The notes under the pieces were generated by a model. It did not search any database, was not told the origin of the DNA, and was given only the letters and a program-made list of their open reading frames with translations. 35,699 nt of DNA from Pseudomonadota bacterium (GTDB taxonomy: Bacteria; Bdellovibrionota_C; UBA2361; OMIW01), in assembly GCA_900299205.1 (NCBI GenBank), contig OMIW01000154.1, forward strand, positions 1 to 35,699, in the 5' to 3' direction. The position numbers and the translations under genes are program-made. Below are positions 5,671 through 18,873 of this stretch, in pieces (the first letter of the stretch is position 1; the number at the start of each line of letters is the position of its first letter).

Positions 5671-8600
5671 ATGCCTCGCCTCGTCCCTCACGTTCATCCC
5701 TCCCGCGATCATCCTGTCCCCTCGGCAACCTCCCGCCCGTCGCTCATCTCCCGGCTCCTCTTCCTCTGGGTCTCCCCCTTTATTAACCGGAATTTCTCCC
5801 GCCCGCTTGAAGTTGATACCCTGCTGGAGATTCCGGATGAGTTCACGGCGACTGAACAGATCGCCCGATTAAAAGAAGGTATGGCCCGATATCGAGGGCA
5901 GCGGATGATGCTGCTACGAGGGCTCTTCTGGAGTATTCGGGCGGAATGTTTTAAGGTTTTCCTGATCTCAATCGTCCTCCTTGCTGCAGGACTAACAAGT
6001 CCGTTGATCGTTCGGCAGCTTCTTCGGTGTCTGGAGGGGACGGCGTCATCGCTTCCACCCGGAGCCGCTTACCTCGTCGCTTTTTTCGGAATTACCGCCA
6101 GAAGTGGATCAGCCATAGCGTTCTCGTTCGTTCTTTTCGGGATCGCAATTATTTCGATGATATCGGTCCACCACCTTTTTTTTCATCAAAAGGGCGCGGC
6201 GACCAAGGCGCATACATCGCTCCGCGGAGTTTTATTCGAAAAAGCGATGAGGCTCGCCCGCTCTGAGCGAGGTGAGGTGAGTAATGGTCAGATCATGAGT
6301 CTGATGGCGAACGATACAGGAAAGGTGATGACATGGCTCACCTTCCTTCATTCGCTTTGGTATCACCCGATGCAGATCGCGCTCGCGTTGGTGCTTCTTT
6401 CTCAGATCCTTGGATGTGCGGTTTTGGGGGGAGTCGCCGTTATCGGAGTTTCGGTTGCAGTCGTCGCGTATCTCGTCCGGGTACAAAATCGTATTCGTAA
6501 GGACGTCCTCCGGGTCGTAGACAGACGGGTTGGTGTTACTGCGGAGGTGATAAGCGCGATAAAAACGGTGAAGTTTCAGGGGTGGGAGGCACCGATGCAG
6601 GAGCGGATTTCCACGCTTCGTGACGAAGAGGTGCAAGGGCTCCGTCGCATAGCATGGTTTGGAAGTCTCGCTGGGTTCATTGGTAATAGCACTCCACCCC
6701 TCGCCCTGGCAGTGACATTTAGCATCGTTGCGATCCGAGAGGGGCATCTTCAAGCTTCGACGGTATTTCCAGCGATGGCGTTGATCCTGCTGTTGCGATT
6801 CGCGTTCAATCACCTTCCTGATAGCTTCAATATATTTGAGGCTGTGCTTTCGCTGAGTCGAATAGAGCGGTTTCTTGCCCGTGCTGATCATCAACCCGTG
6901 GTCCCGGAATCGACAATGGGCCCCGCTGTTGTGCTCACTGATGTCCAGTTTGCTTGGGATTCGGGGGGAGCTGCCCTCACTGTTCCTGATCTGACTATCG
7001 AGCGGGGTGAGCTCGTCGCCGTCGTTGGAGGGGTGGGAGGTGGCAAGACGGCCCTGCTCCTCGGTCTTTTAAACGAAATACCGACGTTACGGGGTTTAGT
7101 GCGAATGTGTGCACTGCCTGCATTGGTAGCGCAGCATCCGTGGGTGGTGAGCGACACGATACGAGCCAATATCATTGCGGGCCGCCCGTACGATGAAGAG
7201 CGATATCAACGGGCGATAACCGCAAGTGCTCTTGTGGCTGATCTGGGGTCGTTTGTCGCGGGTGATGCGACGATTATCGGGGAGCGGGGGGTAAATCTTT
7301 CCGGAGGGCAACGACAGCGGGTCGCGCTCGCTCGGGCCGTTTATGCGCGGGAAGAGATATATCTCCTCGATGACCCGCTGAGTGCGCTCGATCCAGCCGT
7401 CGCGAATGTGGTGTTTGATCATCTGATTGAACGAGAGCTTGCTGATACCACGCGACTAATGGTGACTCATCGTCTCGAGTATGCGCTTCGAGCTGACCGG
7501 GTCATCGTCATCGAAGGGGGCCAGATAATCGAGGTGGGAGCTCCCCGGGAACTTATTGCTCGAGGAGGGCGGTTCGGGGAATTAATCGATCTGCACGCGG
7601 AGGCGACTGTCTCCTCGGAGCAGCCTCTTCAGAAGGGAGCATTTACTCCACTCTCAGCAGATCAGGGGATTTTTTCAGAGGGTGAAGAACCTACTCCATC
7701 AAACGGGGATGAGCTGAGAGGTGAGGGGGCGCTGGCCGAATCGCGCGAAGTGCACTCGATTATAGAGTCTGAGGAGCGAGAGGTTGGCGCTGTCGGATGG
7801 GGTGTCGTCCGACAATTTTTGCGGTGGTACGTGCCTGGTGGTGCTGCGGTACTTCTCGCCGTGGTAGTTGTTGGGCGACACCTGGCAACGGTAAGTGTCG
7901 ATCTCTGGCTCGCATCGTTCGCAAAGGGGCCGCTGACGTCGGTAGCACCCTTCATTATTGGGTATGTTGTCCTTGTTTCGCTCCTGGGTATGTTCCACCT
8001 CTCCCGGTGGTATCTCTTTCTCTCCTCGGGACTTCGCGCGGGAATCACCGCGCACACCCTGCTCCTGCGCTCCGTTCTCCAAGCTCCGATTCGATTCTTT
8101 GAAGCAAATCCCGTTGGCCGGATTGTGAATCGATTCAGCCGAGATCTCGACATGATAGAGAGCACCCTGCCCAGGATGTTACTTGATCTTACTTCAAGTG
8201 CACTCGAGGTAGTTGGCGTGACTGTGATGCTGATCTACGTAGAACCCCGGGCAATTTTTTTCCTCGTACCGATATTCATCGGTTACTATCGAATTCAGCA
8301 AAAGATGCGGCCAACGGGGCGAGAGGCACAGCGGCTTGAATCATTAGCGAGCTCCCCCATATTCGCCCATTTCGCCGAATCTCTCAGCGGAGTCGACACC
8401 GTCCGATCGAGCGGGCTGGTATCAGCCTTCGAGCAGCGGCTCGGGGTGATGATGAATAATCATTCTCGGGCGTCGTATTCGCTTGGCGCATCGGCTCGAT
8501 GGGTAGGGCTTCGGCTCGAACTGCTTGCGGCTTTAATAATCTTGGGAAGTGGGATCTCTGTTGCACTCATCCCATCGGCCGAACTTAGCCCTGCGCTCGC

Positions 8601-9501
8601 AGGGCTATTGCTGACATACACCATCACTGTAAGTGGTGCGATGAACTGGTTTGTTCGAGCCCTCATTCTTTCAGAGAGCTACCTGACTTCGTGTGAGCGG
8701 ATTGGAGTGTACGCGGCGATTCCACCCGAATCTGAGACGTGCATCCGGCCTCCCAGTGGATGGCCGAACCGAGGAAAAATCGCGTTTTCCTCACTTACGG
8801 TTCGGTATCGTCCCGAACTCGAACCAGCCCTCAACGATATTTCCCTCACGATTCCAGCTGGAGCCAGAGTCGGCATAATCGGCCGTACGGGCTCGGGTAA
8901 GAGCACGATGATAGCGACACTGGCTCGATTTCTGCCATTTGGTAGTGGAGGCATAGTGATCGATGGAGTCGATATCAGCAGCCTTGACCTCGCCGCACTG
9001 CGGGGAGCGCTTTGTGTTGTTCCGCAAGAGCCCGTTCTCTTCTCAGGCGATCTTCGTGACACCCTTGACCCGTTCGGTCGAGCGACCGATACCGATATAA
9101 TGACAGTGCTCGAACGGGTAGAGCTCGGATCGTTCGTCCGTAGCTTGCCAGGACTTCTTCAGTATCAGATACATGAAGGGGGATTGAATCTCAGCGCCGG
9201 ACAGAGACAGCTCCTCTGCCTCGCCCGAGCTCTTCTCCGTGGCAACAAGATAATTATCCTCGATGAAGCAACCGCCGCGATCGATGTGGAGACAGATAGC
9301 TGTATTCAAAGAACGATTCGCCGAGAATTCATCGGCTGCACCGTGCTCGTTATTGCACACCGACTCGGGACGGTGATTGATTCAGATTTGATTCTCGCAT
9401 TGGAGCGAGGACGAGTCGTCGAATACGGCAGTCCAGTTGAGTTGTTACAGAGGGACGGTTCGTACGTCGCGGGATTGGTGCGGGAAATGCAACGGGCGTG
9501 A
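5671..9501 (+). CDS. ABCC (MRP/CFTR)-type full-length ABC transporter
   Basis: A single chain of 1276 residues laid out TMD1 (about 90-400), NBD1 (about 415-640), charged linker (about 640-705), TMD2 (about 720-1020), NBD2 (about 1045-1276). The N-terminus SLISRLLFLWVSPFINR plus RPLEVDTLLEIPDE matches the lasso-like start of eukaryotic ABCC proteins lacking TMD0. NBD1: Walker A GGVGGGKTA (about 454), signature LSGGQRQRVALARA, Walker B YLLDDPLSALD with Asp where the catalytic Glu would be. NBD2: Walker A GRTGSGKST (about 1071), signature LSAGQRQLLCLARAL, Walker B IILDEATAAID with Glu, H-loop IAHRL. This degenerate-NBD1/canonical-NBD2 asymmetry is an ABCC hallmark. Family members export organic anions and conjugates from the cytosol; the substrate here is unknown. 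Most bacterial exporters are half-size homodimers or heterodimers, so the fused form is unusual. Confidence 0.93.
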   Translation: MPRLVPHVHPSRDHPVPSATSRPSLISRLLFLWVSPFINRNFSRPLEVDTLLEIPDEFTATEQIARLKEGMARYRGQRMMLLRGLFWSIRAECFKVFLISIVLLAAGLTSPLIVRQLLRCLEGTASSLPPGAAYLVAFFGITARSGSAIAFSFVLFGIAIISMISVHHLFFHQKGAATKAHTSLRGVLFEKAMRLARSERGEVSNGQIMSLMANDTGKVMTWLTFLHSLWYHPMQIALALVLLSQILGCAVLGGVAVIGVSVAVVAYLVRVQNRIRKDVLRVVDRRVGVTAEVISAIKTVKFQGWEAPMQERISTLRDEEVQGLRRIAWFGSLAGFIGNSTPPLALAVTFSIVAIREGHLQASTVFPAMALILLLRFAFNHLPDSFNIFEAVLSLSRIERFLARADHQPVVPESTMGPAVVLTDVQFAWDSGGAALTVPDLTIERGELVAVVGGVGGGKTALLLGLLNEIPTLRGLVRMCALPALVAQHPWVVSDTIRANIIAGRPYDEERYQRAITASALVADLGSFVAGDATIIGERGVNLSGGQRQRVALARAVYAREEIYLLDDPLSALDPAVANVVFDHLIERELADTTRLMVTHRLEYALRADRVIVIEGGQIIEVGAPRELIARGGRFGELIDLHAEATVSSEQPLQKGAFTPLSADQGIFSEGEEPTPSNGDELRGEGALAESREVHSIIESEEREVGAVGWGVVRQFLRWYVPGGAAVLLAVVVVGRHLATVSVDLWLASFAKGPLTSVAPFIIGYVVLVSLLGMFHLSRWYLFLSSGLRAGITAHTLLLRSVLQAPIRFFEANPVGRIVNRFSRDLDMIESTLPRMLLDLTSSALEVVGVTVMLIYVEPRAIFFLVPIFIGYYRIQQKMRPTGREAQRLESLASSPIFAHFAESLSGVDTVRSSGLVSAFEQRLGVMMNNHSRASYSLGASARWVGLRLELLAALIILGSGISVALIPSAELSPALAGLLLTYTITVSGAMNWFVRALILSESYLTSCERIGVYAAIPPESETCIRPPSGWPNRGKIAFSSLTVRYRPELEPALNDISLTIPAGARVGIIGRTGSGKSTMIATLARFLPFGSGGIVIDGVDISSLDLAALRGALCVVPQEPVLFSGDLRDTLDPFGRATDTDIMTVLERVELGSFVRSLPGLLQYQIHEGGLNLSAGQRQLLCLARALLRGNKIIILDEATAAIDVETDSCIQRTIRREFIGCTVLVIAHRLGTVIDSDLILALERGRVVEYGSPVELLQRDGSYVAGLVREMQRA

Positions 9502-11930: not shown

Positions 11931-12971
11931 CTAAATTTCATCCAAAATCGCCTTGCGTTTTTCGGCGTATTCCTCAGCCGAGATTAACTCCATATTTCGC
12001 AGCTCCTTGAGCTTCATAAGTCGCTCGGCAGCCGATAGTTGAGAGGGTGCTGCTTGTTCGTGGGGAGTGGTGGAGACCGTTACGGGGGTATTAACGAGGA
12101 TACCGGCCATTTGTTGCCCCAGCGCAACACCAGCGCCGATCCCCATCCCTACTCCGGCACCGCCGCTTTCATTTTTTGCGGCATCACGCATCGCTTTAAC
12201 CTGCTGCATCTGAGCAAAGGAGAGGCCAGCCGCTTTAGCCGCACCGACCTCGGCGATCGTATCAGCGATGGTGCCTACGCGTGAGGTTGTCTCCTCATCA
12301 AAATCTGTTCCCTCAATTCGAAAATCAAGCAACTCGAATCCAAGCTCGGTAAAATCTGGCTTTGCCCTCTCGGTGCACTGAGCTGCGAGCTGCTCTCGGT
12401 GTTTGTCGATCTCAAGAAAAGCGTATCCAGCCTGTGCGAACGTGGCAGTGAGTGGTTGAATAAATCGCGGAACGAGAACCGCGCGAATATCCTGAACGGT
12501 TACTTGAGCCCGAGCCCCCAGTACCGAGGAGAAAAAGAAGTTCGGATCGGAAAATCGAAAGGAGAAATTGCCGTACGCTCGCAAGCCTACCGGGAATTGA
12601 TAGACAGGGTCTGCATATTTGACAGGGGTGCTCGTCCCCCACTTCTGATTGAGAAGCTGCGCGGTGCGGAAGAAATAAACCCCCACCTTGTGTTCACTCT
12701 CAAAGTTTTGCAAAACACTCTTGAGGGTAGTGATGAAGGGGATATTGTCCGTTTCAATCTGATAGAGACCCTCTTTGCTATGAACTGCCTGAATGGTTCC
12801 TCGATAGAGGAGGATAACTCCCTCACCCGGTTTTATAATGAGCTTGGAGGCATCCTTGATCTCGTCAAAGTTCTCCGACCAGCTTGCGATAACGAGGTCG
12901 TCCGATGGGTTCTCCCATTCGATGACAGAGCGAAGCTGCTTGCCGAGATTGAAGAGATCGCGTAATACCAT
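11931..12971 (-). CDS. SPFH-domain protein with C-terminal SHOCT (virion-core/YdjI-like)
   Basis: The N-terminal 230 residues fit the SPFH (band-7) family branch often labelled virion core protein or YdjI-like: IKPGEGVILLYRGTIQ, the FFRTAQLLNQKWGTSTPVKY strand set, the YGNFSFRFSDPNFFF block and ELGFELLDFRIEG. A helical segment (AKAAGLSFAQMQQVKAMRDAA) and a Gly-rich stretch GGAGVGMGIGAGVALG follow. The last 30 residues (LMKLKELRNMELISAEEYAEKRKAILDEI) are a SHOCT domain, a small oligomerisation module. No TM segment is evident, so membrane association would be peripheral. A GGAG lies about 9 nt before the ATG. It is divergent from speD across 237 bp and such proteins recur near DUF4178/DUF350/SpeD genes, so it probably belongs to that system. 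Confidence 0.85.
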   Translation of the reverse strand: MVLRDLFNLGKQLRSVIEWENPSDDLVIASWSENFDEIKDASKLIIKPGEGVILLYRGTIQAVHSKEGLYQIETDNIPFITTLKSVLQNFESEHKVGVYFFRTAQLLNQKWGTSTPVKYADPVYQFPVGLRAYGNFSFRFSDPNFFFSSVLGARAQVTVQDIRAVLVPRFIQPLTATFAQAGYAFLEIDKHREQLAAQCTERAKPDFTELGFELLDFRIEGTDFDEETTSRVGTIADTIAEVGAAKAAGLSFAQMQQVKAMRDAAKNESGGAGVGMGIGAGVALGQQMAGILVNTPVTVSTTPHEQAAPSQLSAAERLMKLKELRNMELISAEEYAEKRKAILDEI

Positions 12972-13208
12972 ACAGGAAGTCTCCGTTGATAAGGGGCATT
13001 TGCAAAAACCGATGCATCTTCTGCTTGGTGATAACGAGCGGAAGTCGAATGCACATTATATCGTACCTTTTGCTCACGTTGTAGTGGTCTTCGAATTTCG
13101 CTCAGCGGTTTGAAGCGTGCAATTCTATCAACGGCTATTCGGGCATTTCGTCTTGACGATATTCTTACCCGATTCAACTGCCGGATCCCCGAAAATATTG
13201 ATAGATAG

Positions 13209-13640
13209 ATGCCCTCTCTACCACCAGCTACCCATCTGTGTGCCACGCTTATCGGATGCCAACTGGGGCTCCTCTGCCCCGAGCCCGAGCGTCTTGCCCC
13301 GCTTGGGGGGGCAATATCGGCGCGAGCTAGGTCAGCGGGGTTTCATGTCGTCGGTGAGGCGTTTCACTTTTTCGGGCCTCACGCCATCACCGGTGCACTC
13401 CTTCTCGCTGAGTCCCACCTCTGCTTCCACACCTGGCCTGAGTTCGGGGTGGTGTATCTTGATCTCTTTACCTGTGCGCAATCAGAGACCGCTGTCCGTG
13501 CGATGGAGGAGCTTATTGGCCTTCTCGCGATTGAATTTTTTTGTGCGTCCGAGATGAAGGTCTCATTGCTTGACCGCAATCGGGGGGGGGTGCCGCAGCT
13601 CCTCCGAAATTCCGTCCCTCCTATCGAAGGAGTTCTATGA
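13209..13640 (+). CDS. speD: S-adenosylmethionine decarboxylase proenzyme (SpeD)
   Basis: SpeD self-cleaves at a serine to make a pyruvoyl cofactor and decarboxylates AdoMet to the aminopropyl donor for polyamine synthesis. The processing motif LLLAESHLCFHTWPE contains Ser69 (cleavage site), His74 and, downstream in LDLFTC, Cys89; these match the Ser, His and Cys that are essential in the short bacterial/archaeal SpeD class. The 143-residue length fits that class. The last codons overlap the next gene by ATGA, which indicates translational coupling. A run of eight G (13582-13589) lies near the 3' end. Pairing with the spermidine-synthase-like gene at 16.4 kb suggests a dedicated pathway instead of housekeeping spermidine supply. 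Confidence 0.93.
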   Translation: MPSLPPATHLCATLIGCQLGLLCPEPERLAPLGGAISARARSAGFHVVGEAFHFFGPHAITGALLLAESHLCFHTWPEFGVVYLDLFTCAQSETAVRAMEELIGLLAIEFFCASEMKVSLLDRNRGGVPQLLRNSVPPIEGVL

Positions 13641-14245
13641 CCCAACAGATCCGATGTAGTAGCTGTGGAGGTGCTCATGCCGTTGAGGAGGCGTTCGCGC
13701 GGATCTTTGCTTGTTGCTACTGTGGCCTTGTTTCACGGATTGATGGGGGTTCGCTGACTGTTGTTGGTCGTTCAACACAAATAGCGGTAAACCAAGGGCT
13801 CTTCTCGATCGGGATGCGGGGAACATATCGAGATGAATCCTTCACGGTAGTGGGACGGATTCGATACCACCATGAAGCTGGAGTATGGGATGAGTGGCAG
13901 CTCATCTGTGGTGGACGCCCGATGTGGGTGCAACAAGACGAAGGTCGGTTGACCGTATTCCACCGAGAAGAGGTCATTACTGATGCGCCTCCGTTTTATT
14001 CGTTGGAGGCCGGAAAAAATGTCTCACTCGGAGGTAGCTCTTTTTTCGTCTCTGAGATTGGGGAGGGAGTTATTGCAGCGCTGAGTGGGCAGATTCCGCG
14101 TGATGTCGCCGTTGGACAAGGTTTTTTCTTTGTTGAGGGAATTGGTGCAAAGATCAGCATCAGCGTTGAGTATTACTTCACGGAAGTAGTTCTTTATGAG
14201 GGAATAAAAGCCCTTCCGGAACAATTCAAAAGCGAACCGATATGA
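13637..14245 (+). CDS. Zinc-ribbon DUF4178 protein (short paralogue)
   Basis: The N-terminus carries a CxxC...CCxC zinc ribbon (Cys7, Cys10, Cys26/27, Cys29). A single DUF4178 domain follows, recognisable from GLFSIGMRGTYRDESFTVVG, RIRYHHEAGVWDEWQLI and PMWVQQDEGRLTVFH. There is no signal peptide or TM segment, so it is probably cytoplasmic, possibly membrane-associated through partners. DUF4178 has no established biochemical role; it recurs with DUF350, SpeD and spermidine-synthase-like proteins. The gene overlaps both speD and the next gene by 4 bp (ATGA). Confidence 0.85.
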   Translation: MTQQIRCSSCGGAHAVEEAFARIFACCYCGLVSRIDGGSLTVVGRSTQIAVNQGLFSIGMRGTYRDESFTVVGRIRYHHEAGVWDEWQLICGGRPMWVQQDEGRLTVFHREEVITDAPPFYSLEAGKNVSLGGSSFFVSEIGEGVIAALSGQIPRDVAVGQGFFFVEGIGAKISISVEYYFTEVVLYEGIKALPEQFKSEPI

Positions 14246-15729
14246 TTGACGATCGGTGGGAAGATCAACTCAAAGAGTTGCTTGACGATGGTGCGCTTGA
14301 TCGGGTGCTTGCTGTGCGGGATGCGCTCGGTAGCCGTGCAAAAAGAACCGACCTCGCTCCTTTGATCGAAACAGCGGAGCGTCGGAAGCGCCTTCTTGCG
14401 TTGTTCAGCGTTGAGTCCCCGAGAGCACGAGGTGTGTCATGCCCGAGCTGTGATCTTAAACTCCGGGTGGTTTCGGAGAGCTCCCGAAGTGTCGGTTGTT
14501 ATGGATGTGGTGCAATCATTGAGATTGGCTCGCTCCAAATCGTGGGGGAGCGGTCCGATAGGCTCAATCAATCCGCGCTTACTCTGGGTCACCGTGGTAC
14601 TATCGATGGAACCTCGGTAGAGGTTATCGGTCGTGTTGGGTATCATGCAGAAACGAGGGAGTACGATGCTGAGGATAATACCTATGAATCTGGAACCTGG
14701 TACTGGGAGGAGTGGAGTCTCCTTACTTCGTCAGGCGTGACCTGGTTCCTCTCGGTTGACTCAGAGGGGTATGCGTTAGCTCGGCCCTTTACACCGGCGA
14801 CTCCCGCGGTGCCATTCGATTATACTGATGAGATGGATCTCGCCGAGCTATCCAATGGTGGGGGTATGTTCGGCGGGCTTATACCGCAGTCGATGCGTCG
14901 GACAACCCGGATCGATGAATGGGGAAAGGCGAGGATCGTCGCGACCGAAGGTGAGCTGTCATGGGTACCAAATCCTGAAGAGGAGATACTATATGCAGAG
15001 CAACGTGATGGGTCACGCGGGGCGCGAGGGGTTGAGTGGAGACGTGATTCGGCCTCAAAAGAGACGATAGAGGCGGAGTTTTATCGCTCCGAGTCGGTGT
15101 CCTATGCTGAACTTCTCGAGATATTTCCGGTCCCGGAACTTATCGAGTCCCATGAATATGAGACTTCGATTCGACGAGAACGATTAGGGTGGGCCACCTC
15201 TTTTATGCTCGTAGGGGTGTTACTTCTCATACGCGGGGCAGTATGGTCTAAGGCCGGTAGCACGATATTCAGTAAATCGGTCGACCTGTCGTTAACAGCA
15301 AGTGACTCCGGCTATCTCATGGGTCCGGTTGGCCTCCTTCAATCAGGACTTATCTATGAAGTGTCTTTCGGCGCGTCGATACCCGATAACTCTGATGTGT
15401 GGCTTGGAGTTGAGATACTTGATCGCGATAAAAGCGCTATTAACGCTCCTCAAGCTGATTTTTGGCGGGAATCTGGGTATGAGGATGGTGAACATTATAG
15501 TGAATCGAATCTCTCCGCGAAGAAACGATTTCAACTTCAAGAACCGGGATATTACTTCCTTCGCTTATTTTCAGAGACCGAGCCCGGGCAGCGAGTGTCG
15601 GGAACAGCCCATGTCGCGGTGAATGAGGGGGTCCAAACTCCCGTGTTGTATGTGCTCTGCGGTATTGTGTCATTAGTGATTGGATTCGTTCTCAGGATGT
15701 TAGCCCCTCAGCCGCGAAATCTCATATGA
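14242..15729 (+). CDS. Zinc-ribbon DUF4178 membrane protein (long paralogue)
   Basis: A larger relative of the preceding gene. A helical, charged N-terminus (about residues 1-60) is followed by a zinc ribbon (Cys67, Cys70, Cys86, Cys89) and a DUF4178 domain (about 105-305) with LTLGHRGTIDGTSVEVIGRVGYH and WEEWSLLTSSGVTWFLS. One TM helix (about 316-335), a beta-rich segment of about 130 residues and a second TM helix (about 468-487) close the protein. The beta-rich segment would lie outside the membrane and looks like a small sandwich or jelly-roll; this is inference. Starts and ends with ATGA overlaps. A tandem paralogue pair of different topology suggests a cytosolic and a membrane-tethered subunit of one complex. 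Confidence 0.85.
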   Translation: MIDDRWEDQLKELLDDGALDRVLAVRDALGSRAKRTDLAPLIETAERRKRLLALFSVESPRARGVSCPSCDLKLRVVSESSRSVGCYGCGAIIEIGSLQIVGERSDRLNQSALTLGHRGTIDGTSVEVIGRVGYHAETREYDAEDNTYESGTWYWEEWSLLTSSGVTWFLSVDSEGYALARPFTPATPAVPFDYTDEMDLAELSNGGGMFGGLIPQSMRRTTRIDEWGKARIVATEGELSWVPNPEEEILYAEQRDGSRGARGVEWRRDSASKETIEAEFYRSESVSYAELLEIFPVPELIESHEYETSIRRERLGWATSFMLVGVLLLIRGAVWSKAGSTIFSKSVDLSLTASDSGYLMGPVGLLQSGLIYEVSFGASIPDNSDVWLGVEILDRDKSAINAPQADFWRESGYEDGEHYSESNLSAKKRFQLQEPGYYFLRLFSETEPGQRVSGTAHVAVNEGVQTPVLYVLCGIVSLVIGFVLRMLAPQPRNLI

Positions 15730-15971
15730 AACCATTTAGCTCATTCACCAAAACGGTTCTGGGTTCGACCCTGCTTCTCCTCGTCGGGACACCATGGATC
15801 GGTTCGAAGAGGCCTTTTTGGTTGGGAACCGAGCGAGATTCTCGGGTCGTAGCGGCACTCGATCGCTGTGCACCCGAGTTTCGTAATGCTCAGGGCCGTT
15901 GTATTCAAACAAGCCGTTCTGCCCTAAGGCATCGCTCAATTTTTGGTGGCAGCTATGGGTCAGGTAAATGA
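15726..15971 (+). CDS. Small single-TM protein of unknown function
   Basis: 81 residues: a short N-terminus, one hydrophobic helix (about residues 9-24) that is either a signal anchor or signal peptide, then a polar segment with two cysteines (in DRCAPEF and QGRCIQTSR) and an unusual glycine-rich end FGGSYGSGK. The ATG overlaps the stop of the DUF4178 gene (ATGA), which is the strongest evidence that it is real. Not recognised as a named family. Small secreted proteins at this position are seen in related DUF4178/DUF350 clusters, as I recall, but that is not verified here. Confidence 0.6.
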   Translation: MKPFSSFTKTVLGSTLLLLVGTPWIGSKRPFWLGTERDSRVVAALDRCAPEFRNAQGRCIQTSRSALRHRSIFGGSYGSGK

Positions 15972-16018
15972 GTTAAATTTTATCTCAGAGTAGTCTGTTG
16001 GCATTTTGTGGGAGATCT

Positions 16019-16315
16019 ATGAAATCAGTGAATTACCTTTTATTTCTGATAGTCGCGGTTATTATCCCAGCGGTAGCTCACGCGAGCGTCCCGATGATAT
16101 CAGGAAATAACGTCATCGACGGTATTTTGTCGACGCTCATCTATGGAGTGATAGGGCTTCTCTTCGGAGCAATCTCATTCCGTATCATCGACGCGCGGTT
16201 CCCTGGGGACCTTAAACATCAAATTACGCAGGAAAAAAATCTCGCACTAGCGGTTCTGGTGGGTGCCCAATCTCTCGGAGTTGCGCTCATCATCGCTGCG
16301 GCGATTGCAGGGTAG
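16019..16315 (+). CDS. DUF350 membrane protein
   Basis: 98 residues with a cleavable-looking N-terminus (LFLIVAVIIPAVAHA) and then two strongly hydrophobic helices around GILSTLIYGVIGLLFGAISFRIIDAR and LALAVLVGAQSLGVALIIAAAIAG, with the conserved IDAR...PGDL...QEKNLALAV pattern of DUF350 (E. coli YjfL-like). The ATG at 16019 was chosen because GGGAGA lies 5 nt upstream; a longer in-frame start at 15998 lacks this. The function of the family is not known. It sits between the DUF4178 pair and the aminopropyltransferase in the same operon. Confidence 0.88.
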   Translation: MKSVNYLLFLIVAVIIPAVAHASVPMISGNNVIDGILSTLIYGVIGLLFGAISFRIIDARFPGDLKHQITQEKNLALAVLVGAQSLGVALIIAAAIAG

Positions 16316-16375
16316 CTCTCAAACAAGCGCAAACATCTGCCCCGATCCGGGCCGACTCAGATGGAGAGTGCGATG

Positions 16376-17905
16376 ATGGGAAAGGGTGCCGAATCTACAA
16401 GGAGTGATGTGGCGATCCTTTTGGTTTCGCTCGGCATGGTTGCTGCGTGTGCCATCACATACGAGTTACTCATCGGGACCGTATCCTCTTACTATCTCGG
16501 GAGCAGCGTCCTCCATTTTTCTCTCACGATTGGGCTATTTCTTTTTTTTCTTGGCATCGGGGCGTTCCTTTCAAAATTCGTCTCTCGAGATGAGCTAGAA
16601 GTTTTCGTCTGGACGGAGTTGCTACTGGGGTTCGTAGGAATTGGTTCGGTCCTCGTCCTACAGGCCAGTTTCTCACTCACTGATCATTACTATCTGGTCG
16701 CTCTGATACTTCTTGCGACCATAGCAACGCTCTGTGGCCTTGAGGTTCCTCTTCTAACGAGGCTGATTTATCGACACCAAGGGTTATCAGCCACCCTCGC
16801 GCACGCTCTTTCGATTGATTATGTGGGAGGACTTGTCGGATCAGTGCTCTTTCCGATAGTCCTTCTCCCGACATTCGGCACTCTCAAGACCGGTTGCTTA
16901 GTGGGTCTGCTGAATGTCGGAGTGGCATCTCTCGTGGTGTATCACTTTCGGGCTGTGCTTCGCCATCGTGGGATACTGACGATCCTCTGTGCCGGGGGGA
17001 TCATCCTCGGGGTTTCTCAATTTGCGGTCGCCGAGAGACTGGTTTCCCTCCTTGAGCAATCGGTATACGACGACGAGATTGTGTATGCCGATCAGTCCCC
17101 GTACCAGCGAATTATTCTCACCCAGCACAAGAATGACCTTCGTCTTTACCTCAATGGAGACCTTCAGTTTAGCTCAGTGGATGAACATAGGTACCATGAG
17201 CCGCTCGTTCATATTCCGATGCAACTCGCAAGAAAGAGAGGAGCGGTCCTCCTTCTGGGTGGTGGCGATGGCCTCGCCGCTCGTGAGATTCTCTCGTATC
17301 CGGAGGTTTCATCGCTCACCATCGTAGATCTTGATTGGAAGGTGACAGCTCTTGCCACCACTCACGCCCTGATGCGTTCCATTAACAAGAAATCGCTCTC
17401 TGACCCGCGAGTAACCCTTATTCATGACGATGCCTGGCGGTTCGTTCATAATACCTCTGCGCTTTTTGATGTCATCATTGCAGATCTACCGGATGCGAAC
17501 GACTACGGACTTGGAAAGCTCTACTCGCGCGAGTTTTATCGACGTGCCTCTCGGATTCTTTCGTCAGGCGGGGTTTTTATCACTCAGGCGGCATCCCCTT
17601 TTTTCACCCGTAATGCCTTCTGGTGTATCGCCCACACCGTTGCTGCCGCGTTTCCCGTGACCACTCCGCTTCACAACACTATTCCCTCATTTGGCTCGTG
17701 GGGTTACGTTCTGGCATCTCATGCCGTACCCCTTACGCTCGAATCGCTGCCACTCCCGACCACTCTTCGGTATCTCACCAAGGAACTTCTTCCTACCCTT
17801 GCGATCTTTGATGGGGATACGAGTGAAGTTCCGACAGAGATACAGCGGCTTGATAGTCAGGTGTTGGTCCGATTGTACGCTGATGGGTGGGAGCGATTTG
17901 ATTGA
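16376..17905 (+). CDS. Membrane-anchored spermidine-synthase-like aminopropyltransferase
   Basis: About 510 residues. The first 215 form six or seven TM helices; the rest is a Rossmann aminopropyltransferase domain. Seen: SPYQRIILTQHKNDLRLYLNG (substrate-loop N-domain), VLLLGGGDGLAAREIL with GGGDG at about 295-299, TIVDLD, and IIADLPDANDYGLGKLYS (Asp370, Asp373), where soluble enzymes have their catalytic Asp. SpeE enzymes transfer an aminopropyl group from decarboxylated AdoMet to an amine; the fused membrane domain suggests a membrane-proximal acceptor, unknown here. Three ATGs (16361, 16373, 16376) are possible; GGAGAG at 16363-16368 favours 16373 or 16376. With SpeD in the same operon the donor is made locally. 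Confidence 0.88.
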   Translation: MGKGAESTRSDVAILLVSLGMVAACAITYELLIGTVSSYYLGSSVLHFSLTIGLFLFFLGIGAFLSKFVSRDELEVFVWTELLLGFVGIGSVLVLQASFSLTDHYYLVALILLATIATLCGLEVPLLTRLIYRHQGLSATLAHALSIDYVGGLVGSVLFPIVLLPTFGTLKTGCLVGLLNVGVASLVVYHFRAVLRHRGILTILCAGGIILGVSQFAVAERLVSLLEQSVYDDEIVYADQSPYQRIILTQHKNDLRLYLNGDLQFSSVDEHRYHEPLVHIPMQLARKRGAVLLLGGGDGLAAREILSYPEVSSLTIVDLDWKVTALATTHALMRSINKKSLSDPRVTLIHDDAWRFVHNTSALFDVIIADLPDANDYGLGKLYSREFYRRASRILSSGGVFITQAASPFFTRNAFWCIAHTVAAAFPVTTPLHNTIPSFGSWGYVLASHAVPLTLESLPLPTTLRYLTKELLPTLAIFDGDTSEVPTEIQRLDSQVLVRLYADGWERFD

Positions 17906-17937
17906 TAGCGATACCTCCTTTTTTAGGGAGCAGATCT

Positions 17938-18873
17938 ATGGATTGTGATCGATGGAACAAAATCATTAAATTTCGAGTCGGCTCGGTCGATGATTCTTTC
18001 GACTTTATCTCCCGACTTGCCCGCGATAATCGGTGGACCGTCGATTACGCAAAACGGGTGTACCGAGAATATCTTCACTTTATGTATCTGACGCTTCGTG
18101 CCGGTCATCCTCTTACCCCCTCTGATGAGGTCGATCAGGCGTGGCATCTTCATCTCACGTATAGTAGGTCTTATTGGGAGGATTTCTGCGGCGCAACCCT
18201 TGGAGAGCTCGTTCACCACGATCCAACTCGGGGAGGAACAGATGAACGAAGAAAGTTTCGGTCCTGGTATGCTGATACGCTTAAATCCTATGAATTGATT
18301 TTTGGCTATCCACCGCCGTACGACATTTGGCCACGATTAGTAACCCGATTCGAGAGAGCCCCCGATTTCGTGAGGGTCAATAAGCAAGATTTCGTTCTTG
18401 TTCCGCGCTCGATAGCGTTGGGAGGGGGATTCATCAGCATCGCCGCAGGAGCAGTGGGATGTGGGGTGAATCCGTTTGATTTTGAAGCTAAGACATTTAT
18501 CGTCTGGTATCTAGTGGCGTATTGTTTATCCATCTTGATGATGGTGATGAGCGCTCGTATTGGAGGGTCGGGAGCACGAAGGCTATCGTGGGTTCCGCTG
18601 GGATTTGTAATCATCATAGGGCTAATTCGAATTTTGTTTGGACTGATGATCGGGAAGCCGGTCGAGTATCTTGCTTTCATCGAACTTTGCGGAGTTTTGT
18701 TCCTATTTTCTCTGTTTGAAAAAAAGTATACCGGCAGAGGTGGAGATTCGGGATGTGGAGGGACCTTCGGTGACGGAGGTCCCTCCCCGCACGGTGGTTC
18801 AGATTCAGATGGGGGTGACGGTGGCGACTCGGGCTGCGGAGGATGTGGAGGATGTGGTGGTGGCGGTGATTGA
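17938..18873 (+). CDS. Membrane protein with GRDP-like N-domain and Gly/Cys-rich tail (TIGR04222-like)
   Basis: 311 residues. The N-terminal soluble domain contains VDQAWHLHLTYSRSYWEDFC (from about residue 65), the pattern of glycine-rich-domain-containing proteins in which an invariant W-H-x-H follows an acidic VD. Three or four TM helices follow (about 158-262). The last 48 residues are almost only Gly, Ser, Asp and Cys, ending SGCGGCGGCGGGGD with five cysteines; similar tails mark TIGR04222-type membrane proteins. The start ATG 17938 has AGGGAG 7 nt upstream, better than in-frame ATG 17902, which overlaps the previous gene. Function unknown; the tail may bind metal or be exposed outside the membrane. 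It closes the operon. Confidence 0.8.
   Translation: MDCDRWNKIIKFRVGSVDDSFDFISRLARDNRWTVDYAKRVYREYLHFMYLTLRAGHPLTPSDEVDQAWHLHLTYSRSYWEDFCGATLGELVHHDPTRGGTDERRKFRSWYADTLKSYELIFGYPPPYDIWPRLVTRFERAPDFVRVNKQDFVLVPRSIALGGGFISIAAGAVGCGVNPFDFEAKTFIVWYLVAYCLSILMMVMSARIGGSGARRLSWVPLGFVIIIGLIRILFGLMIGKPVEYLAFIELCGVLFLFSLFEKKYTGRGGDSGCGGTFGDGGPSPHGGSDSDGGDGGDSGCGGCGGCGGGGD

Follow-up and report, generated by a model that had tools for sequence, protein, structure and literature searches.

A lysine-ended, glycine-rich protein tail as candidate acceptor of a membrane-fused aminopropyltransferase

The gene cluster and its relatives

The window, by which we mean the whole analysed stretch of 35,699 nucleotides from a Pseudomonadota bacterium (GTDB lineage Bdellovibrionota_C; contig OMIW01000154.1, assembly GCA_900299205.1), holds a gene cluster that encodes SpeD and an aminopropyltransferase (APT) fused to transmembrane (TM) helices. 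A sequence-only reading had described eight genes of a self-contained polyamine-type modification system at this place, and all eight are indeed present. The most telling feature of the cluster, overlooked in that reading, is the C-terminus of the small TM protein that is encoded just upstream of the DUF350 gene, as this protein ends with a glycine-rich stretch and a terminal lysine. The parts of the cluster are as follows:

11931..12971, minus strand: SPFH (Band_7_1) protein with C-terminal SHOCT motif (Pfam Band_7_1 2.4e-35, SHOCT 7.4e-5)
13209..13640, plus strand: SpeD, predicted class 1b S-adenosylmethionine (AdoMet) decarboxylase (AdoMet_dc 2.9e-19; Ser69, His74, Cys89)
13637..14245, plus strand: DUF4178 protein with N-terminal zinc ribbon (DUF4178 1.7e-9; CxxC at 7 and 26)
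14242..15729, plus strand: another, longer DUF4178-like protein that has a zinc ribbon and TM segments (similar in sequence to DUF4178 proteins from related loci; CxxC at 67 and 86)
15726..15971, plus strand: small exported or TM-anchored tail protein, candidate acceptor (C-terminus GGSYGSGK-COOH; homologous to small proteins of loci L085, L086 and L088)
15960..15968, plus strand: codons for the final Ser-Gly-Lys, the terminal Lys being the residue proposed as modified (from the sequence)
16019..16315, plus strand, start at 15998 or 16019: DUF350 membrane protein (DUF350 4.6e-10)
16361..17905, plus strand: membrane-fused APT (Spermine_synth 3e-35; NF002956 548 bits)
17902..18873, plus strand: membrane protein whose tail is rich in Gly and Cys and ends in Asp (TIGR04222 0.0072, weak)

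The first junctions of the plus-strand genes are ATGA overlaps (at 13637, 14242 and 15726), and the SPFH/SHOCT gene is divergent across 237 bp, both as read before. Of the two proteins that had been called DUF4178 zinc-ribbon proteins, the first matches Pfam DUF4178, whereas the second has no such match and is assigned by its zinc ribbon and its similarity to DUF4178 proteins of related loci. A DUF4178 model (predicted local distance difference test, pLDDT, 80) found no solved-structure match better than E 0.12. In SpeD, the previously noted Ser69, His74 and Cys89 are kept and align to solved AdoMet decarboxylases (AdoMetDCs; 1tlu/2iii); its score of 66.3 lies below the TIGR03330 cut-off of 75.65, and neofunctionalised SpeDs are on record (PMC10407285). 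This SpeD is predicted to decarboxylate AdoMet and to make the aminopropyl donor.

The cluster was compared with 102 loci that encode such APT fusions, namely a first set of 57 loci from named genomes, including the window, and a second set of 45 further loci from the window's phylum, two other phylum-level draws and one lone genome. Counting genes on the same strand and within about 6.5 kb of the APT fusion, we found DUF350 at 80 of the 102 loci and DUF4178 at 75; SpeD was seen at 19 and a flavin amine oxidase at 16. With such high counts for DUF350 and DUF4178, homologous neighbourhoods do keep these genes together, a linkage on which the sequence-only reading had made its proposal depend, but with so few linked SpeD genes its term “self-contained” is too strong in general. 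The window has the multi-TM APT fusion, with DUF350 and DUF4178 in the same operon, and thus belongs to a known module, as a member of the SPFH type. No PspA/CesT member was found among its neighbours; as many members also lack this dyad, its absence sets the subtype and not the membership. The same kind of SPFH gene occurs in a Novosphingobium cluster (L148, 1.2e-67).

The tail and its carriers

Where the window has its small TM protein, the loci of the first set contain small genes that seem unrelated except for their ends, which read ...GGGYRGGK, ...GGGPGSGK or ...GGSWGGGK and thus resemble the ...GGSYGSGK of the window. A strict rule that was fixed on this set (a GxGK-type ending and at least three Gly within the last 12 residues) finds a tail close to the APT at 39 of the 57 loci and gives five further matches among about 7,290 open reading frames (ORFs), all of which are longer cluster members. 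Applied unchanged to the independent second set, the rule matches at 21 of 45 loci as compared with none of 2,769 distant ORFs, and no tail of this kind lies near the gene at any of seven canonical speE control loci. On inspection, the missed loci encode the same tail with slightly different endings, such as the ...RSRGFSFGK or similar of 11 lipoproteins. A relaxed rule recovers 81 of the 102 loci versus 4 of 9,656 distant ORFs, one of these four being a real carrier, and five loci accepted by eye bring those with a Lys-ended, Gly-rich tail encoded close to the APT to 86 of 102. Where both DUF350 and DUF4178 are present, the tail is found in 61 of 62 loci, and the exception (L031) is probably a frameshift.

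The proteins that carry the tail are dissimilar. With the tails removed they fall into 23 BLAST groups, some of which may be distantly related, and they comprise mini TM proteins of 49-102 residues, lipoproteins of about 230-250 residues, Pfam-confirmed DUF4247 proteins and fusions of DUF4178 with the tail (L022, L026); most have N-terminal hydrophobic or lipobox signals. The last residue is Lys in 82 of 82 carriers, Lys having been part of the selection, and the residue before it is Gly in 81 of 82. When the tail-less sequences were used for a back-search, all 81 matched ORFs ended in Lys, as compared with 8.7% of the genes in these loci; the matches are mostly the carriers themselves, and the result mainly shows that no Lys-less homologue was found within the set.

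Plasmid records provide further examples. In Novosphingobium ES2-1, the annotation of the Prokaryotic Genome Annotation Pipeline (PGAP) gives the order SPFH, DUF4178, DUF4178, a 48-residue protein, DUF350, APT, an oxidoreductase dependent on flavin adenine dinucleotide (FAD) and SpeD, which is the gene order of the window with SpeD placed last, and the 48-residue protein ends with GPSHK. Tails of the records from Ensifer (...PESGK), Tritonibacter (...NRVK) and Gemmatirosa (...RHGK) likewise end in Lys, and no Lys tail was seen in a Burkholderia plasmid record.

A different tail accompanies another enzyme. YjfC/YgiC-type ligases are reported to join peptides to spermidine (Pederick 2023, Biochemistry 62:899, as cited in PMC12568646), and in RefSeq annotation DUF350 lies beside such ATP-grasp ligases. 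The partner protein in these ligase clusters ends with -GG in 9 of 11 cases (E. coli YgiB and YjfM, and those of Vibrio, Rhizobium, Sulfitobacter, Methylobacterium, Arthrobacter and two Acinetobacter), with near-misses in Nonomuraea (-GGS) and Asticcacaulis (-CCG), while four ligase loci (L155, L156, L161, L162) gave no tail candidate under the filter used. The terminal residue thus changes with the enzyme, since there is a C-terminal Gly in the clusters of the amide ligases and an amine side chain in those of the APT.

Enzyme, donor and acceptor

The APT of the window has 514 residues, with TM helices at about 10-222 and the APT domain from about residue 239. It matches the polyamine aminopropyltransferase model NF002956 over residues 12-512 with 548 bits (cut-off 472) and scores 131 versus a TIGR00417 speE cut-off of 249.55. 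Its structural model (pLDDT 93) shows the fold of solved aminopropyltransferases, and all catalytic residues are kept; GGGDG (300-304) and the DxPD motif, here DLPD (375-378), had rightly been read as intact and are invariant or nearly so across 55 homologues. Specific to the family is a conserved acceptor loop (QATSPxFAPxAFWCI; PSFGxWG). Hydropathy and charge suggest seven TM helices. In 55 of 55 homologues, Lys and Arg are abundant in the N-terminus and in loops 2, 4 and 6 (mean 11.8) and scarce in loops 1, 3 and 5 (1.3), and this positive-inside pattern makes it probable that the APT domain is on the outer side of the cytoplasmic membrane. Four intramembrane acidic residues (E35, E86, E128 and D153) are 84-100% conserved, as might be expected for cation handling. 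A twin-arginine motif and, after it, a lipobox are present in 16 of 16 amine oxidases of the clusters and also in the Novosphingobium one. Such twin-arginine translocation (Tat) and lipobox signals, together with the positive-inside topology, suggest that the modified product lies outside the cytoplasm.

We consider it moderately probable that the module makes a polyamine-capped protein tail, with the APT aminopropylating the side chain of the C-terminal Lys of the clustered exported protein. SpeD would decarboxylate AdoMet to provide the aminopropyl donor, and the membrane-fused APT would use this donor to aminopropylate the side chain of the terminal Lys (of the 15726-15971 protein in the window) at its amine. 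That side chain is a butylamine like putrescine and would be presented on a Gly-rich, flexible tail. The resulting ...Gly-Lys(N-epsilon-aminopropyl)-COOH, with a Lys bearing -NH-(CH2)3-NH2, would be much like a spermidine moiety and chemically close to the Gly-spermidine tail that is expected from YjfC/YgiC acting on the -GG tails of YjfM/YgiB. If the APT domain is outside, entry or export of the cationic donor would be a task of the TM part and its four conserved acids, and in some phyla the new amine may then be oxidised by an amine oxidase that is Tat-exported and lipid-anchored. The computations show the linkage of the genes, the constant last Lys of dissimilar carriers and the conservation of catalytic residues; we infer the transfer to Lys, the membrane side and a physiological role in the envelope or in stress. 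The sequence-only reading had proposed local aminopropylation of a membrane lipid, peptide or protein; the membrane-linked aminopropylation fits and has been proposed before (Li 2019, via PMC12803844 and PMC11237479), and of the three targets the comparative data favour a protein tail. Its suggestion of a role in membrane stress agrees with SPFH here and PspA/CesT in related loci, which is guilt by association.

Several points weigh against a transfer to the tail, or against the place and donor assumed for it. No modified peptide has been observed. In the structural model, residues 142-195 form a single unbroken helix, whereas the count of seven helices is based on hydropathy and charge, and an extracytoplasmic APT requires export of the donor, for which we know of no precedent. 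The relaxed tail rule was chosen post hoc, after the second set had been seen, 5 of the 86 tails (L036, L089, L105, L116, L117) were not accepted by rule, and the loci are mutually related, so that the counts overstate independence. No tail was found in 16 of 102 loci, which mostly have no DUF4178, lie at contig ends or reflect a likely frameshift, but the related L109 and L110 and one family (L097, L098, L103, L104) are unexplained. Finally, class-1 AdoMetDC was undetected in 15 of 56 fusion-bearing genomes or records.

Given these SpeD-less genomes and the rare linkage, SpeD was rejected as a universal partner. No class-2 AdoMetDC was found as the missing decarboxylase, by a search that gave no match in any control either, and the donor-site residues of the APT do not differ in SpeD-less genomes. 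Such genomes would use either another decarboxylase or AdoMet itself as donor, and in the latter case +101 instead of +57 Da is predicted for the product. APT-fusion modules with no detectable SpeD in the genome were seen in genomes of the G050 phylum, in G092 and G253, and in the genomes of L049, L057 and L058. In Corynebacterium glutamicum, DUF4178 and Spermine_synth were matched and AdoMet_dc was not.

What alternatives exist for a modified tail? The one that survives best, although we regard it as unlikely, places the acceptor elsewhere in the envelope (the amine of a lipid headgroup or of the cell wall, or a small molecule) and makes the tail protein a docking, activating or sensing partner, for example a pseudo-substrate with its Lys in the acceptor pocket. 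This would suit an enzyme that is embedded in the membrane and has membrane-linked partner genes (SPFH, PspA, DUF350), and it would accommodate the 16 APT-fusion loci without a tail gene. A pseudo-substrate, however, need not be invariant at the exact last residue across dissimilar carriers, and the parallel -GG tail of the ligase clusters makes more sense with both tails as substrates. Less likely still is an ordinary membrane-anchored polyamine synthase with putrescine or agmatine as acceptor, in a cluster that regulates polyamines at the membrane. The NCBIfam name of the enzyme, its SpeE fold and its catalytic residues agree with this, and in the window's genome (89.75% complete), which has one SpeD, a single arginine decarboxylase and one further protein of the MFS-SpdSyn type, no canonical SpeE was found and the arginine decarboxylase could feed the enzyme. 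Nevertheless, the Lys-ended tails would be left unaccounted for, and according to PMC12803844 experiments showed that the bacterial homologues of these fusions take no part in making spermidine or spermine. Canonical polyamine synthesis was demoted from cluster function to a rival explanation. That the tails, which besides the terminal Lys are rich in Arg, Tyr, His and Gly, are structural cationic anchors for binding of the membrane, SPFH or PspA and are conserved independently of the transferase is very improbable, as the terminal position is strict, constancy among dissimilar carriers is limited to the last residue, and such tails are nearly absent elsewhere in the same loci and at canonical speE loci.

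Some neighbouring and related genes were observed besides. A Tat-signal, lipobox FAD amine oxidase lies beside or near the APT in L008, L012, L023, L024, L028, L030, L032, L037-L039, L041-L043, L045, L053, L056 and L148, and at many of the amine-oxidase loci the gene after the oxidase encodes a multi-TM protein of unknown family (cluster c5). In L130-L137, from genomes of the window's phylum (G034, G003, G019, G004, G012, G021, G041), SpeD is accompanied by a stand-alone TM-domain paralogue of about 235 residues and a larger TM-APT fusion of about 610-670 residues; three of these loci (L132, L134, L136) adjoin pseudopilin or type II secretion-like genes. As no Lys-ended tail was found in L130-L137, this larger variant was not taken as a further member and is treated apart. 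The fusion APT genes of L097, L098, L103 and L104 have no Lys tail and no DUF350 or DUF4178 matches, and in L104, similarly in L097, the overlapping upstream gene encodes a PMT-like mannosyltransferase, which is another context for the same enzyme. The Gly/Cys-tailed protein of the window (17902-18873) gave no solved-structure match and was rejected as a general module component, since it is rarely conserved and has a single relative among related loci, a tail-less one in a Rickettsiales cluster (L007, 6289-6888). It contains a WHxH motif that resembles GRDP/DUF1399 proteins. Elsewhere in the window's genome, an MFS/spermidine-synthase-like fusion (NF037959; G000:C108:14296-14721) lacks the DxxD catalytic motif, and positions 5671-9501 of the window encode a full-length ABC transporter of 1276 residues that by eye resembles eukaryotic ABCC/MRP proteins.

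Relation to known systems

That related DUF350/DUF4178 clusters are known while their target is not established had been stated in the sequence-only reading and holds, the gene set having been described before. Clusters of AdoMetDC, an MFS-spermidine-synthase fusion and DUF350 are attributed to Li, Kurihara, Kim, Liang and Michael 2019 (Biochem J 476:2579) in PMC12803844 and PMC11237479, the latter citing the work for aminopropylation of other substrates. They share SpeD, the membrane-fused APT and DUF350 with the window, but the specific acceptor, drawn from the Lys-ended tail, is proposed here. Operons with a spermidine-synthase-like domain on an N-terminal 7TM part, DUF350, DUF4178 and lipoprotein or DUF4247 partners are described in PMC11237479 (Ravi 2024). 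This spermine-synthase operon, which is linked to the phage-shock-protein (PSP) system, shares the 7TM-APT fusion, DUF350 and DUF4178 with the window but has the PspA/CesT dyad where the window has an SPFH-SHOCT protein; the lipoprotein and DUF4247 partners are named in the available text of that paper, but no rule of a C-terminal Lys.

Many bacterial phyla contain the membrane-fused APT family, whose annotation is polyamine synthesis and which reportedly makes no polyamines. Canonical SpeE shares the APT fold and the catalytic motifs, but is a soluble putrescine user of about 280-310 residues without TM domain and with a different acceptor loop. Which acceptor the fused enzymes use, a point that Li and colleagues reportedly left open, has been unanswered since at least 2019, and an adjoining Lys-ended tail makes the acceptor directly testable. 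To our knowledge, and within the literature searched, in which no paper on aminopropyl-lysine was found, the tail as acceptor is a new proposal, and it suggests what the DUF4247, DUF4178 and DUF350 proteins serve.

An enzymatic aminoalkyl transfer onto a protein lysine side chain, as proposed for the APT, is known from deoxyhypusine synthase and eIF5A. There, an unrelated cytosolic enzyme transfers an aminobutyl group from spermidine to an internal lysine.

The system of YjfC/YgiC with YjfM/YgiB (DUF1190) and YjfL (DUF350) shares DUF350, PspA, an exported partner with a Gly-rich tail and the polyamine chemistry with the APT module, but it uses an ATP-grasp amide ligase and a partner with -GG in place of an aminopropyltransferase and a partner with -K. 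As neither an ATP-grasp GspS-like ligase nor a DUF1190 partner was found in the window cluster, the resemblance is in logic only. The YjfC/YgiC ligases presumably are cytosolic because they need ATP, and tails could therefore also be modified before export. The chances appear to us evenly balanced that the widespread membrane-fused “spermidine synthases” aminopropylate the C-terminal Lys of exported or lipid-anchored proteins, perhaps outside the cytoplasm, and that this is a new post-translational modification, functionally equivalent to the glycyl-spermidine of YjfC/YgiC. If so, one kind of end product, a polyamine-capped tail, has evolved by two chemical routes, and two seemingly separate polyamine-linked envelope systems would be unified.

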